Shown here one piece after another: positions 7,287 to 54,373 of a DNA stretch of 64,000 bases. The DNA lies in the IMG/VR virus record IMGVR_UViG_3300022851_000011, positions 57,549-121,548 of that record, one strand, 5' to 3'. The position numbers and the translations under genes are program-made. Source of the stretch: a virus. The notes below the pieces were generated by a model, which was not told where the DNA came from, did not search any database, and was given only the letters and a program-made list of their open reading frames with translations. Every line of letters begins with the position of its first letter. Position 1 is the first letter of the stretch.

Positions 7287-8291
7287 TTATTTAACTTTTC
7301 GTTTTCGAACAGTTCCTTCTGGTGCCGGGATAAGACCCTTATCAGAAAGATATCCGTATTCACCCGTTGCCTTTTCACTGATAAACTCACTAACATATTC
7401 TTCAATACCAGCTATACTGCCAACGTGCTGTTCTTTCACATAAAAGAACAATGACCTAGACACTGGATAAGAACCATCAGAGATGTTTTCAAATGTTGGC
7501 AACACACCATTGATGTGTGAACCTTGAACCTTATCACTGTTATTCTCTAGAAAGCTAAATCCAAAGATACCAACAGCATTCTTATTAGCCGATAGCTTTT
7601 GAACAATCAAGTTGTCGTTCTCGCCAGCTTCTACATAAGCACCATCTTCACGTAGACCATGTGCTACTGCTTTGAACTTTTTCTTATCTGTCTTGCGAAG
7701 TTCTTTCAATGAAGGGAATGTCTTTGCGCCTTTTTCCATAACCAATTCAAGGAACGCATCTCGTGTACCTGACGTTGGTGGCGGTCCTAATATTTCAATC
7801 TTAATTTCTGGTAAGTTAATACCAATGTCATTCCATGTTTCATTTGGATTAGCGATTAACTCGCCATTTGCATCAGGAATAAACTTAGCTAAAGCCAAGA
7901 ATAAATCACGAACGGTTAAGTCAAGATGTGTTGCTCCCTTTGCGTTAGCGATAGCAATACCATCAAAGCCAACTAAAACCTCGGTTACATCAGTCACGCC
8001 GTTCTTTGCGCATAGTTTGATTTCAGAAGGTTTGATTTGTCTTGATGCGTTCGTAATGTCTGGGAATTGTGTTCCAACACCACTGCAAAATAGTTTCAAG
8101 CCGCCGCCTGATCCCGTAGATTCGACGACTGGTGTTTTGAAGGAGGTTGTATTGCCGAATGATTCAGCAACGGTAGTTGAAAATGGGTAAACGGTAGAAC
8201 TGCCTACGATGCGAATTTGGTCACGTGCTTCAGCAGTTGTTGCCACAAGCAAAAATGCCGTTGCGGCGACGGCTAGTAGATTTAGTTTCAT
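7287..8291 (-). CDS. pstS: periplasmic phosphate-binding protein PstS
   Basis: 334 aa with a Sec signal peptide (MKLNLLAVAATAFLLVATTAEA) and then IRIVGSSTVYPF, the PstS N-terminal phosphate loop; STGSGGG (about 60-66) and SGTRDAF (about 175) supply further phosphate ligands. It binds phosphate in the periplasm for the host PstCAB importer. No pstC/A/B follow, as in marine cyanophages that carry pstS as an auxiliary metabolic gene. A Pho-box-like array lies upstream at 8352-8380, consistent with control by host PhoB. Confidence 0.9.
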   Translation of the reverse strand: MKLNLLAVAATAFLLVATTAEARDQIRIVGSSTVYPFSTTVAESFGNTTSFKTPVVESTGSGGGLKLFCSGVGTQFPDITNASRQIKPSEIKLCAKNGVTDVTEVLVGFDGIAIANAKGATHLDLTVRDLFLALAKFIPDANGELIANPNETWNDIGINLPEIKIEILGPPPTSGTRDAFLELVMEKGAKTFPSLKELRKTDKKKFKAVAHGLREDGAYVEAGENDNLIVQKLSANKNAVGIFGFSFLENNSDKVQGSHINGVLPTFENISDGSYPVSRSLFFYVKEQHVGSIAGIEEYVSEFISEKATGEYGYLSDKGLIPAPEGTVRKRKVK

Positions 8292-32688: not shown

Positions 32689-33945
32689 TTATTCGTTTGC
32701 TTCTTTATCAGCATAAACAAACTTTACTCTATCATTATACATGATTGTGTCATCAGTTACAATAAGTTTTTTCACACCTTCTTCAGCATATGTATATAGA
32801 TTATACTGATGATGTAATAGAACATCTTCGATAATCTTCTTCAAGCCACGTGCACCCGTATCCAATGTAACCGCCTTTTCAGCAATAGCCATTAATGCGG
32901 ATTCAGTGAACTCAAGCGACACACCTTGTAAATCAAAGTAATATTGATACTGCTCAACAATACTGTTCTTTGTATCGGTCATAATATGAACAAGTTGCTC
33001 ACTTGTTAAACGCTGGACATTTGTGAATACAGGAAATCTACCTGTGAACTCAGGGATAAGCCCAAAGTCTACAAAATCGTGTGGCTCAACTTGGTCCAAT
33101 AGATGCGTATTATCTTCATCCATCTTGTTTACTGACGCACCAAAGCCGATTGATGTAGGCTTCTGACGTTTAGCAATAAGTTTATCCAAGCCAACAAATG
33201 CTCCACTAACAATGAATAAAATGTTATGTGTATCCACGCTCACCATATCCTGACCGGGATGCTTGCGTCCACCTTGCGGGGCAATGCGACACTCAGTGCC
33301 TTCTACAAGCTTCAATAATGCTTGCTGAACGCCTTCTCCACTAACATCACGTGTAATACTGGCATTTTCACCTTTACGTGCAATCTTATCAATCTCATCG
33401 ATAAAGATAATACCATTCTGTGCCTTTTCTATGTCACCACCAGCAACATGTAACAATCGTGACACGATACTTTCTACATCATCACCGACATAACCCGCCT
33501 CGGTTAAGGTTGTCGCATCGGTGATAACGAATGGAACTTCAAGATACTCTGCAATAGCACGTGCCAGCATCGTCTTACCATTGCCAGTCGGACCTGCAAT
33601 CATAATGTTTGATTTTTCGATTTTCAAGTCTTTTGGTGGGTGATTGATACGTTTAAAATGATTGGCTACGGCTACACTTAATGCGATTTTAGCATTGTCT
33701 TGTGACACTACGTATTGGTCAAGGTGTGCTTTAATCATGATGGGATTAAGATGATCCTTGCTGATAAGAGATTTCTTTATCTTAGCATAACGATCATCTT
33801 CTAATATGTCGTGACAAAGATCAACACATTCGTTACAAATGCTTGTTTCATTACCGACAATGAGTTTATCTACTTCATTTCGATTCTTGCCGCAGAAATC
33901 ACATTCTAAGTTTTTAGTCTTATCACTGTCTTTGTCTTTGCTCAT
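32689..33945 (-). CDS. clpX: ClpX unfoldase
   Basis: 418 aa, full length. The N-terminal zinc-binding domain (CDFCGKN then [10 protein letters not shown]) is followed by Walker [10 protein letters not shown] (N for the usual C/S), Walker [10 protein letters not shown], sensor and pore elements (GYVGDD, RKHPGQD region) and the C-terminal RGL(K)KIIED. ClpX unfolds ssrA-tagged proteins for ClpP; the host would supply ClpP. With the phage tmRNA, whose tag ends AVAA, it forms a complete tag-and-destroy pair. Confidence 0.92.
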
Positions 33946-49606: not shown

Positions 49607-50121
49607 GCCACTACTAATAACATTACTTCTTTTAAGTTTTTAAAAATATCCATGGTGTCAATACAGACAAATCCCAGTTGCTCTGCTCGATCCCACTGCT
49701 CTTTCATTTGTGGAATCCACCACTCAAGCAATTGTAAACTAATGGCTTCTCGTTTTTCCCATTTTTCAAGTGCATCTATATTATTGTTCCAAGCAGCTAA
49801 GTCCAACCCCTCTATTGCTCGGGTAGAATATTTTGGAATTTTTTGCTGAGTAATCTTTGCAAACTCAGCTGAGTCATCAGTCTTGGGACCTAAATAAAAT
49901 TTTATACCATGTTCTTTATTAATATATTCAATTACCTCTATGCCTTTCATGTCCGGCATTGGAACAATAGGAGTAAAAATATTATCATCTGATTCAATAT
50001 ATTTCTTTTTAATTAACGCTTCCTTAGTTACTGGATGCCATTGTTTCTTAAAACCATGTGATGTAACTATGTCGTTGCCGGGTACAAAACTTAACCAAAT
50101 ATTCATTGACATTTCCCACAA
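49607..50121 (-). CDS. hypothetical protein, rearranged 3' end
   Basis: About 170 aa: MNIWLSFVPGNDIVTSHGFK, then KFYLGPKTDDSAEFAKITQQ and QLLEWWIPQMKEQWDRAEQL. The frame runs into the antisense of the radical SAM fragment, so its natural end is lost. Family not recognised; it could be a late part of a radical SAM or nucleotide-processing protein. Confidence 0.4.
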
Positions 50122-50321
50122 TTAAATAAGCAATAGTCTGGTTTACTAGTCTGTATTGTAGCATAAAAATTATTAAAATAAGATATCTGATTACTTAGTT
50201 TACTAGTTTTAATATTATGGTCCTCTTTATTTTTACGCCATTGACTCTTATAATGAAAGTTATAGTGTTTGCTATAACAGCATGGTGAATAGTAGCCGTC
50301 ACTGCTAATAAAATGCATCAT
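50103..50321 (-). pseudogene. Cys-rich fragment of a radical SAM-type protein
   Basis: MMHFISSDGYYSPCCYSKHY and an end CLFNCGKCQ. GxYxPCC plus a C-x-CxxC end is typical of the N-terminal auxiliary region of the twitch-type radical SAM proteins seen at 60791-62014. It lacks the SAM cluster itself. Confidence 0.45.
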
Positions 50322-50349
50322 GTCATCTTTACATTTAGGATCGATCTAT

Positions 50350-50850
50350 AACAAAATCTCTATTAGGAGTAGTTTCAAATTTTCTTTGTACAATATCCCT
50401 TGGGTGTCATTGCATCTATTGGTAAGTGTAGCAACACCACCAATAGTTAAGGCGTCAATAATACCCTCACATACTATACTAAACTTTCCTCCTTGGGATT
50501 TGCCTGTCTATTCCGTAAACGTAGTTGCTCTCGTAATTATTAAAGTATTTAGGCTTAGTCTCGTTATCTGCGGCTCTTGCTGTTGATCCTATAACACGGC
50601 CCTGCCAAGTACAGGGAATAATAATACGCTTATACATTCTAGCAGGTTTAGTGTCGCTCCACAATAACTCATTTACTGGCATCTTACGCTGTTGTGCATA
50701 TTCCAGTAACTCTGCTGGGCCTTGTGTTAATGGCACACAATCTTGAGGTAGTTCACGCTCTGGAAACTCAATAGTAAACTCAGGTTCATCTATCTCCTCT
50801 TCAAGCACCACAGTATCTTTAATGCGCAGCGCTTCAACTACTACACGTTT
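50350..50850 (-). pseudogene. decayed phage DNA primase (TOPRIM) fragment
   Basis: One frame (to 50479) reads RMYKRIIIPCTWQGRVIGST then ARAADNETKPKYFNN, the pre-TOPRIM segment of DnaG-like phage primases. The next frame reads VCEGIIDALTIGGVATLTN, the TOPRIM EG..DAL motif. A frameshift near 50480 separates them, and the zinc-finger front and the rest of the catalytic core are missing. Confidence 0.7.
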
Positions 50851-50927
50851 TCATTTTAAGTCAAGCATAAACGATACGAAGAAGTTTCAAAGAAGGTATG
50901 TGACGACATCACGTGGGTTAAAACGCT

Positions 50928-51209
50928 TTATATCCAATAATCGGGGCGCGCTGCACGGTTAATATCTTCGGGCGAAACCCATTGTAAACAAAATATACCG
51001 GCATCTTCTTCTTTTTCGAAATAGAATGAAAACGCCGTACCGCTAGAGTGTTTAGCAATCACGTCGCCTTTACAGTTATGATGAATCCATAACCGAAGCT
51101 GGTGCGCTGACCGTCCTGACTCATGTGTTATTCCACCGACCATAGTGTATCCATCGGTATTATAGAACATTTGAAATATAGTGTCATTTGAAATATAGTT
51201 GAATGTCAT
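50928..51209 (-). CDS. hypothetical protein
   Basis: 93 aa: IFQMFYNTDGYTMVGGITHE, then AFSFYFEKEEDAGIFCLQWV. The FExEEDAxxFxLxW pattern recurs in small phage proteins and in 12823-13101. Function unknown. Confidence 0.5.
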   Translation of the reverse strand: MTFNYISNDTIFQMFYNTDGYTMVGGITHESGRSAHQLRLWIHHNCKGDVIAKHSSGTAFSFYFEKEEDAGIFCLQWVSPEDINRAARPDYWI

Positions 51210-51505
51210 TTTATTACTCGAACGATTTCCATATCGATGTTATAATCATCACTGGCAAAGTCCAAGTAGTCTTGGTATGATTTACCTACCCATGCAGGAA
51301 GTTCATCTTCCATCTTATGCCAGCGTGGACCTTTCCATTCATCGCATTTGTATGTGGTATCCCATCCGCCGTCTTGTGAATACATGGGTGATTCTTGCAC
51401 GTCACGGACATAATCATCACTATTCAAAATAACATCGGCTGTTAATACTAATAGTGTACAGCCGGTAAGGGTATAGTTTATACCATCTTTTGAATGCGGT
51501 GTCAT
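51206..51505 (-). CDS. hypothetical protein
   Basis: 99 aa, acidic and Trp-rich, with one possible hydrophobic segment near the start (LTGCTLLVLTADVIL). Overlaps the next gene by 4 bp. It lies just after the RNA region. Confidence 0.5.
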   Translation of the reverse strand: MTPHSKDGINYTLTGCTLLVLTADVILNSDDYVRDVQESPMYSQDGGWDTTYKCDEWKGPRWHKMEDELPAWVGKSYQDYLDFASDDYNIDMEIVRVIK

Positions 51506-51560
51506 TGTATTGCCTATTTGAAATGCGTTAAAAACTGTGATTTTGGGGATTTGGTAGAAT

Positions 51561-51595
51561 CAGGGGTGAACGATACTGTTACCGGGTCACCCCTG
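51561..51595 (-). terminator. strong hairpin ending the large RNA region
   Basis: CAGGGGTGA pairs perfectly with TCACCCCTG around a 17-base loop. It is not followed by a long T run on the minus strand, so it may be a processing or rho-dependent end rather than a classical terminator. Confidence 0.5.
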
Positions 51596-52082
51596 TTTCT
51601 AAATTATTCGATTTTTATCTACTATGTGAGTAGTTTATCTAGCCAGCACCTCTTTGAGTAGAACGCAATGTCTAAACTATTGACTGTAGGGATCAGCCAC
51701 TATACTATATTTATCATGTAATACTATACACGTTTATACTCTAGTATTTATATCAAGTCTGAGATTACGACTTGTAGTAGGTGTCTTTGGGCCGTACCGA
51801 ACGATATCCCTATCGTTGTTAATCCTTTATCCACTAAGTGCCTTGCGGCTTACCTAGTATCACCTAATGCTGCCTTGATTAAAGTGGTGGCGTTTCCACT
51901 GTCGCATTACACTACTCGTCCATCTATCTTCCGCCTGTCTTGCGAACAGTTCAACTTTGCTAAAAGTTTACGTCTTCTTTTCGAACAATCACTCGCAGCC
52001 TTGGGAGCTTTGAGCAAACTACATTCACTTACGTGTGTAGTATTAAGCACCTTTAGTGCAATACCGGGACAGACTTTCCATT

Positions 52083-52153
52083 TGACAATGTTGGAATTGA
52101 ACCAACGTTCGTCTGCTATGAAGGCAGATGTCTAACCATTCGACATATTGTAA
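52083..52153 (-). tRNA. tRNA with apparent UCA anticodon
   Basis: Cloverleaf: acceptor TTACAAT/ATTGTCA (6 of 7 pairs), D-stem GTC/GAC with GG in the loop, anticodon stem TCTGC/GCAGA, loop CTTCATA, T-stem GTTGG/CCAAC with loop TTCAATT, discriminator A, CCA not encoded. Strict numbering gives anticodon UCA (reads UGA); a one-base slip in the loop would give UUC (Glu). It lies in the middle of the large RNA. Confidence 0.65.
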
Positions 52154-52668
52154 ATCACCATGATGTGCTGTCCCTGTTGCGTCATAACCTTTTGGGTTAC
52201 AATATACAACACACCACCTGTTTTTCGGCTTGCGACCTAATAAACGTTTCTTCTGGTTTATGTCCCTCTTCAAAGAACGAGGTCCATCCACCGTTGAAAT
52301 ACCAACCGCCCTTCTACGCTAATAGTCGGACTACTTTGATTACCTGTTAGTCAATCTTCGCTGAATAGGTTTGCATGTTATGGCGATGTTGCTGCATCTT
52401 TTGTCCTCATCGTTGACCAAGACCATTTTATCCTTTCGGACCATACCCCTATCTTACCGTGTAACCCCTACCTTTCGATAGAAGTCCCGTCGCCGGGAGA
52501 CTCAGGCTTGTTTAGATGGACCATTACTGGCGATGCTATGTGATATATACATCTTTGGGTACGTTACCGCACTTATCCTTAATGGACGCTAAACCGCCCA
52601 TTAACTCTATTCTATTTTCAATCAGCGTTGCTACACTGTCTGTAGCGGCTTACTTATTCAATATAACC

Positions 52669-52697
52669 ATTATACTATAACTAAATGGCTTTGTCAA
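52669..52697 (-). promoter_or_regulatory. perfect sigma70 promoter of the large RNA
   Basis: TTGACA-17-TATAAT with both hexamers perfect. Confidence 0.9.
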
Positions 52698-52739
52698 TAA
52701 CTATTTTCAAAAAACTTATTATATAAGTGCTTTGAAAAT

Positions 52740-52909
52740 GGACCGATGGCTGCGCCTTACATACGCTATCGGTCCCTAGCACATGGGTCTTAAAGTAGAC
52801 CACACCGTTGATTCTTATCGACCCTCAACGAACCCGTCCAAAATTAAAGTATTTGAAAAACTGCATCAGCTTTGTTTTGCCTCGGAATATCAGGGGTTCT
52901 TTATTTGAT
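52740..52909 (-). ncRNA. small RNA with terminator-like hairpin
   Basis: Transcript from the perfect promoter at 52916-52944; no ORF. It ends in GGACCGAT...ATCGGTCC (52740-52775) followed by ATTTTC. About 170 nt; function unknown. Confidence 0.5.
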
Positions 52910-52915
52910 TTAACC

Positions 52916-52944
52916 ATTATACTATATTGTTATGGCATTGTCAA
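52916..52944 (-). promoter_or_regulatory. perfect sigma70 promoter of the small RNA
   Basis: TTGACA-17-TATAAT, both hexamers perfect; the spacer ends in ATAG like that of the large-RNA promoter. Confidence 0.88.
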
Positions 52945-52952
52945 TCTAAAAT

Positions 52953-53073
52953 TTTAAAGAATGTTTTAGGTGGAAAAAAACTGTGCTACTTCACAGGAAA
53001 GCGAGCTGGTCTAAAACTATGGAACAACTAAACATAGGAGAGACTTACGCTCGCGCCTAAAACATTCTTTAAA
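52953..53073. repeat. 18-bp perfect inverted repeat enclosing 85 bp
   Basis: 52953-52970 and 53056-53073 are exact reverse complements (core AAAGAATGTTTTAGG). The enclosed part has further short stems. A TTGACA lies just upstream on the minus strand, so it may be a third RNA with paired ends. Confidence 0.65.
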
Positions 53074-53097
53074 CTTTCAGTCTGTCAACAACTATCA

Positions 53098-53217
53098 TCA
53101 TTTGATTTCTTCCTTAAATACGCACAAAGCAACGACACTAGATTCATTTTCATTGCCAGAGCCGACTTCAATGCGCATTTCCTTAATTGATTGCGAACAT
53201 ACTTCATAGCTGGGCAT
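53098..53217 (-). CDS. 39-aa hypothetical protein
   Basis: MPSYEVCSQSIKEMRIEVGS then NENESSVVALCVFKEEIK. Coding-like composition but no Shine-Dalgarno; modest support only. Confidence 0.35.
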   Translation of the reverse strand: MPSYEVCSQSIKEMRIEVGSGNENESSVVALCVFKEEIK

Positions 53218-53296
53218 CGTCGCATGCGGATTCGAACCGCTTCAAGGGGTTAACCTCTTATCTCCACGCCCTTCCCGGAAAGGGTCAGTCAATTCT

Positions 53297-53392
53297 TTAT
53301 CCAAAAAACATAAAAAAGAATGCAGCACCAACACCACTACAAACAGCAATCATCAGTACGACGGTCTTAATATCTTCTCGGTCAATTTTCAT
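53297..53392 (-). CDS. 31-aa single-TM peptide
   Basis: MKIDREDIKTVVLMIAVCSG followed by VGAAFFFMFFG: a short charged head and one membrane helix. GGAGAAG precedes the ATG. Isolated between RNA elements. 53393-53489 holds no gene I can see. Confidence 0.45.
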   Translation of the reverse strand: MKIDREDIKTVVLMIAVCSGVGAAFFFMFFG

Positions 53393-53489
53393 CTAAGCTT
53401 CTCCAATACATTCACAGCTAATGTCTTTTAGCCAATAATAATCAGCGTCCATTGCCTGATTGGTTGCATCATGTTCATCTTCTGCGATG

Positions 53490-53798
53490 TTATGATTCGG
53501 ATATTGCTTTGAACGCCATTTTTGTTAACTCGGTATACAGGTTTAGATTTTCTTTAATCATGTATTCCTGTGTTGGGGATTTGGCGTGTTGAAGTTGGTG
53601 TTCATATAGTTTGGCTTCATGGCGTAGGTATTTCCATAATGATACCATAGCATCCATTGACGGTTCTTTATTCATTGACTTAATGTATGCGTAGTATGTT
53701 GGATTACGATTAAGATAAGTCTTACTGAATTGCTTATCGGATAGTCCAATGTTTTCTATACGCAGACGATGTAATATTTCGTTAAGGATATCGATCAT
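53490..53798 (-). CDS. hypothetical protein
   Basis: 102 aa: LSDKQFSKTYLNRNPTYYAY then KEPSMDAMVSLWKYLRHEAK. Helical, DNA-binding-like in pattern (short phage family of unknown role, possibly DUF6626). TTGACT-17-TATAAT at 53804-53832 ends 5 nt before the ATG, so the mRNA is leaderless. Confidence 0.6.
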   Translation of the reverse strand: MIDILNEILHRLRIENIGLSDKQFSKTYLNRNPTYYAYIKSMNKEPSMDAMVSLWKYLRHEAKLYEHQLQHAKSPTQEYMIKENLNLYTELTKMAFKAISES

Positions 53799-53803
53799 AT
53801 TGT

Positions 53804-53832
53804 ATTATACTATATGTGATAGGTTAAGTCAA
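53804..53832 (-). promoter_or_regulatory. sigma70 promoter, leaderless geometry
   Basis: TTGACT, 17 bp, TATAAT, 5 nt to the ATG at 53798. Confidence 0.8.
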
Positions 53833-53964: not shown

Positions 53965-54260
53965 AAGTGCTAGGTGATTCTGTTTCCAAGTTCACCTAGC
54001 GAAACTCATTTCCTACGAAGCAGGGCGAAAACCGTTAGGTTCAGGCTGCTACCGCCATAGGAACAAAATTGTCGTTAGACGCTTTTGCAATTGTTGTGTC
54101 GTTACGTTAACCCAGTTTCCACGGGACAATCTCGGTATCGTTTTTACTGCATCAGTCGAACCTGTTTCACTCCCATCATAAGGACACCATATAATATCCT
54201 TATGGTGGAAGTGGTGGGTACTGCCCCCACGTATCTGAACTGCCTATTATACTAGCCTCA
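53965..54260 (-). ncRNA. ssrA: circularly permuted (two-piece) tmRNA
   Basis: Order on the minus strand: acceptor piece with T-stem GTGGG/CCCAC and CACTTCC-ACCA (3' CCA at 54203); a removable spacer that folds as TAAGGA...TCCTTA; then the coding piece starting at 54174 with GGGAGTG, which pairs with CACTTCC, followed by GGTTCGAC. The tag frame (54041-54082) reads ASNDNFVPMAVAA and stops at TGA; alphaproteobacterial tags have the same NDNFxxxxAVAA form. The acceptor T-loop is GGCAGTA, not TTC. It frees stalled ribosomes and tags proteins for ClpX. Confidence 0.9.
53969..54000 (-). terminator. terminator hairpin of the tmRNA
   Basis: GCTAGGTGA pairs perfectly with TCACCTAGC around a 14-base loop, at the 3' end of the coding piece. 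Confidence 0.7.
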
Positions 54261-54307
54261 AACGATTGTATTCTTATTTAGTGTGTCATCTTATTGTTAC
54301 CATGTGT

Positions 54308-54336
54308 ATTATACCACTATATAACAGGAAAGTCAA
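54308..54336 (-). promoter_or_regulatory. sigma70 promoter of the tmRNA
   Basis: TTGACT-17-TATAAT, about 50 bp upstream of the acceptor piece. Confidence 0.8.
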
Positions 54337-54373
54337 TTGTTTTATAATAAATAAGTATCTATTGATAAATGCG

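Follow-up and report, generated by a model that had tools for sequence, protein, structure and literature searches.

A large aquatic phage, represented by a 121,548-base IMG/VR virus record (121.5 kb; G000), carries a true circularly permuted, alpha-type tmRNA gene on the minus strand of the analyzed stretch of 64,000 bases (hereafter the window; bases 57549–121548 of the record). Judging from its sequence, this is very probably a phage ssrA gene, whose permuted, two-piece, alpha-type product would be used for trans-translation during infection.

Detection of the tmRNA Gene

The first-pass annotation had read this locus as a phage-encoded, permuted, alpha-type tmRNA and had named covariance-model and ARAGORN searches as checks. 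Using Rfam models, we found that alpha_tmRNA (RF01849) matches window positions 54340–53969 on the minus strand over the full model length (79.6 bits, E = 6e-20), which gives the whole extent of the gene (53969–54340). The tmRNA_permuted model (RF04321) matches positions 54267–54041 of the same strand, also at full length (80.1 bits, E = 1e-13). Since both scores exceed the curated cut-offs (50 bits for alpha_tmRNA and 47 bits for tmRNA_permuted) at these E values, the match to tmRNA is far beyond chance, and the earlier reading is confirmed. No second permuted tmRNA gene was detected in the whole 121,548-base record. ARAGORN did not report the gene of the window. It likewise misses several homologs with good covariance-model scores (L220, L402, L208, and L416), and the missed call is thus a limit of the tool.

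Organization of the Gene

All elements described here lie on the minus strand of the window. A sigma-70-like promoter (54308–54336, TTGACT-17-TATAAT with TG ahead of the second hexamer, 11/12 matches) precedes the acceptor piece, whose T-arm GTGGG-GGCAGTA-CCCAC is found at 54214–54230. The 3′ strand of the acceptor stem, CACTTCC, together with an encoded ACCA, occupies 54203–54213 according to the sequence and the model alignment. It is followed by a 28-nt intervening sequence (54175–54202), the removal of which is expected to yield two pieces, as in the permuted layout described previously (PMC11915505), and then by the coding piece, which starts with the 5′ strand GGGAGTG (54168–54174). The order is therefore permuted, with the acceptor piece (CCA end at 54203) coming before the coding piece (start at 54174). 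GGTTCGAC is located between GGGAGTG and the tag frame (54041–54088), and the 3′-terminal hairpin GCTAGGTGA...GGAAACAGAA...TCACCTAGC (53969–54000) fits the conserved 3′ end of alpha_tmRNA.

The placement of CACTTCC-ACCA (54213–54203) before GGGAGTG (54174–54168), with two fully paired 7-nt strands and one G-U, had been proposed at first reading and holds: In the stem CACUUCC/GGGAGUG, all seven positions are paired (54174–54168 with 54213–54207), and the single G-U falls at 3-70. This is the established alanine identity position of tmRNA and tRNA-Ala. The acceptor T-loop GGCAGTA indeed lacks TTC, as had been pointed out, but it is not unusual, because the type GGGC(A/G)GTACC is common across the alpha-type tmRNAs collected from viral contigs and is present in most of them. 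Folded jointly, the two pieces had an energy that was unremarkable compared with shuffled sequences (49/300 as strong).

Comparison with the RF01849 and RF04321 families revealed that the window gene has in common with them the permuted order, the G3-U70 acceptor stem, the GGGCAGTACCC T-arm, GGNTCGAC, a tag frame with the NDN motif, and the 3′ hairpin. It differs from them in a score below most, in the acceptor stem CACTTCC/GGGAGTG, in an AKAS extension before NDN in the tag, and in being carried by a phage.

Tag Peptide and Resume Codon

A resume-codon weight matrix covering the codon and its ten preceding bases was trained on 42 tmRNAs whose ANDN tag is unambiguous (mean score 14.0 bits). 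The first-pass annotation had given the tag as the 13-aa ASNDNFVPMAVAA, starting at a GCG at 54082. The frame and the stop of this tag exist, but its start was not supported: An in-frame GCA six bases upstream, at 54088, scores 13.0 bits and the GCG only 5.1 bits, and the base directly before the GCG is an A, which is absent at that place throughout the training set. Because this context favors the upstream codon, the encoded tag is probably the 15-aa AKASNDNFVPMAVAA. Either length leaves the frame and the AVAA end unchanged, so that the earlier statement about the tag end is correct for both. The frame AKASNDNFVPMAVAA-stop combines a proper resume codon with a protease-type end.

The resume-codon context of the window tmRNA agrees with that of its relatives. 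In L215, the tag also begins one alanine earlier (AASNDNAIEDIRLAA, 14.3 vs. −6.4 bits), and ARAGORN calls AASNDNAPSEVRIAA as the tag of L066. The relatives encode differing yet complete tags. This bears on whether the phage tmRNA might serve as a decoy or sensor, that is, whether it acts in competition with the tmRNA of the host or detects ribosomes that have stalled, the tag itself being unimportant. A tag-less tmRNA-like RNA of phage DS6A has been reported to inhibit endogenous tmRNA in Escherichia coli (PMC11915505), and dependence on host SmpB (see below) would also suit such a role. However, the tag frame, the resume context, and the AVAA end are all intact here, and the tags of the relatives have diverged without being lost, which makes a decoy or sensor very unlikely.

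A distinct tag type is common to several ClpX-bearing viral records (L210, L211, L214, L217, and L219), whose tags are unusually long and similar to one another (e.g., ANKRALGFADLTVGISGLRLAA).

Conservation Downstream of nrdB

Three further assemblies of the same phage (L227, L418, and L419) have an identical tmRNA region. In the relative G003/L220, whose NrdB is 80% identical, the tmRNA is found at the same place and in the same orientation, 3.5 kb downstream of nrdB compared with 4.9 kb in the window phage, and the same tmRNA is carried by L215 and L218. The L220 acceptor stem, CCGGUCC/GGGCCGG, shows two-sided changes relative to the window at 4-69, 5-68, and 6-67, and keeps G3-U70 as well as pairs 1-72, 2-71, and 7-66. 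The 3′ hairpin element GAAACAGAA is also present in L215 and L220. Four records with NrdB 62–63% identical (G056, G118, G121, and G136) have a tmRNA on the strand of nrdB, 2–4 kb downstream of this gene; the tmRNA is located elsewhere in G054 and G055, and other records have none. That the position downstream of nrdB recurs at only 62–80% NrdB identity argues for long-term maintenance, and an nrdB-downstream tmRNA appears to have been kept in this lineage over long divergence. At the nucleotide level, a blastn search of phage records with the tmRNA returned short weak matches only, and megablast of the surrounding 24 kb found only a 92-base match in nrdA.

Promoters similar to that of the window gene directly precede the tmRNA in L220, L405, L416, and L420. 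Across the phage record, 37 promoter sites reach at least 11/12 matches, compared with 3–12 in simulated sequence. Such conservation and promoters would be expected of a gene that is maintained and expressed. They also bear on the view that the gene is a nonfunctional or decaying copy acquired from a host, which its score below most phage homologs (80.1 bits vs. up to 142) and its absence from the ARAGORN output could suggest. This view is highly improbable, considering that the full acceptor pairing, G3-U70, CCA, promoter, and 3′ hairpin are intact, that the tag frame is open with a proper resume context, and that a relative has compensatory changes in a gene whose place is conserved.

Proposed Function and Dependence on the Host

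On these features, the phage tmRNA gene probably works. SmpB (PF01668) was found neither in the 121-kb record nor in five related records, among them a 230-kb one, all of which may be incomplete; a self-contained phage trans-translation system with its own SmpB was thus not observed in these six records. Function would therefore depend on the host, whose SmpB must serve if the tmRNA works.

A plausible scheme is as follows. Transcription from the sigma-70-type promoter would produce a single precursor, from which host tRNA-processing enzymes would excise the 28 intervening nucleotides. The acceptor piece, with CCA at its end, and the coding piece would then be joined by the acceptor stem and a P2-type helix. 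Host AlaRS would charge this molecule through G3-U70, and host SmpB and EF-Tu would deliver it to stalled ribosomes, where translation would resume at GCA and add (A)AKASNDNFVPMAVAA. The tagged protein might then be degraded by ClpXP or ClpAP, supplied by either the host or the phage. Such a pathway would probably benefit the phage by recycling ribosomes stalled on broken mRNA, keeping ribosomes free during infection. The anatomy of the gene, its family membership, the promoter match, the conservation with compensatory change, and the lack of a detectable SmpB are the basis of this scheme; transcription, processing, charging, tagging, degradation, and benefit are inferred from established tmRNA biology.

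A possible reader of the tag is a phage ClpX with a zinc finger (418 aa, window 32689–33945, minus strand; Pfam AAA_2, 113 bits; zf-C4_ClpX, 53.4 bits). The same phage encodes a ClpP-family protein, whose gene is close-set with ClpA/C-like and DnaJ-like genes, these two assigned by reading, on the minus strand before the window (L123, G000:22422–27122). It may be considered that the phage tmRNA and its own ClpX and ClpP form a dedicated tag-and-degrade module, for example for removing host proteins in infection, in which the tag would be read preferentially by the phage proteins along a private route using host SmpB. The presence of these Clp and DnaJ-like proteins and the AVAA end fit this possibility, and it had been suggested by permuted tmRNAs in 22 of 47 viral records selected for ClpX. 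This signal vanished, and the link was dropped, when 50 large-phage records (about 39 kb or more) were examined that had been selected on a PhoH or NrdB relative alone, regardless of tmRNA: A permuted tmRNA over the cut-off was present in 3 of 9 records with ClpX and in 13 of 41 without it, revealing no co-occurrence beyond chance in a small sample in which many records are fragments that blur the counts. Moreover, clpX lies 20 kb from the tmRNA, and the ClpP-family match reaches 118.6 bits, which is weak compared with about 260–270 for ClpP of many other viral records, so that this protease may have diverged or serve another use. We consider a dedicated module, and preferential reading of the tag by the phage proteins, unlikely.

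With respect to the host, neither the exact NDNFVPMAVAA DNA pattern nor the looser NDNFxPMAxAA had a match in approximately 85,000 bacterial and archaeal genomes, and so the tag cannot name it. The alpha-type RNA points to an alphaproteobacterial host, present or past, but phage Melnitz shows that alpha-type tmRNA genes can also be carried by phages with different hosts (PMC9004378). Judged by NrdB, the nearest isolates are 337–378-kb jumbo phages of enterobacteria and Xanthomonas, which at 57–58% identity are too distant for naming a host.

Occurrence in Other Phages

Phage copies of permuted tmRNAs had been thought rare in the first-pass annotation, which our counts contradict. A scan of IMG/VR with one permuted-tmRNA pattern returned at least 120 stretches, and about a third (16/50) of the PhoH- or NrdB-picked records above have one. 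The literature agrees: Of 133 unique tmRNA structures from public phage genomes, 53 were reported to be two-piece forms, and 50 of these came from marine or aquatic phages (PMC9004378). Large aquatic phages commonly carry permuted tmRNAs, and the window gene is a good further example and no surprise. With these counts on commonness, it offers a well-placed case of phage-borne trans-translation, and opens to comparative testing the question of how a phage benefits from a tmRNA of its own.

Apart from the two Rfam families, three known phage systems are most similar. The ssrA of Methylophilales phage Melnitz, published in 2022, is also a two-piece alpha-type tmRNA in a marine phage; its DNA similarity to the window tmRNA is weak and local (33 bases, 88%, E = 0.1, blastn), and it is linked to a glutamine riboswitch (PMC9004378), whereas Rfam finds none in the window phage. 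Sinorhizobium jumbo phage AP-J-162, which has an alphaproteobacterial host, encodes a tmRNA together with Clp proteins including ClpX, Hsp20, and DnaJ (PMC11242549), a likeness in gene content; it differs in having a 471-kb genome and 66 tRNA genes. Finally, tmRNA and SmpB have been reported in huge phages (PMC7162821), which resemble the window phage in being large and carrying translation-rescue genes; some of them encode SmpB, in contrast to the window phage and the five related records, in which none was found.

Neighboring RNAs and Genes

A gene for a DUF6626 protein (53490–53798, minus strand) is located just downstream of the tmRNA and has its own 11/12 promoter at 53832. Also beside the tmRNA, a 3.4-kb stretch (50113–53489) without long ATG-started ORFs is apparently in part a noncoding RNA island. 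It contains a GOLLD RNA (52217–51756, minus strand; 202.4 bits, Rfam cut-off 150) with an embedded tRNA whose anticodon, UCA, reads UGA. Genome-wide recoding of TGA by this tRNA was considered and rejected, because TGA is an ordinary stop, found at the end of 36 of 120 long ORFs.

Two perfect TTGACA-17-TATAATGG promoters were also detected in this stretch (52944–52667, minus strand; 0.01 expected). One of them lies approximately 450 bases upstream of the part of GOLLD that Rfam covers. The second is followed by a stretch of about 200 nt, possibly a novel small RNA, for which Rfam gives no match and at whose end a GGACCGAT/ATCGGTCC hairpin is located.

Elsewhere in the phage, a gene for a phosphate-binding (PstS-like) protein (window 7287–8291, minus strand) and TctC/TctA-like tricarboxylate transporter genes (G000:30218–32675, minus strand, assigned by reading) are probable host-derived metabolic genes.
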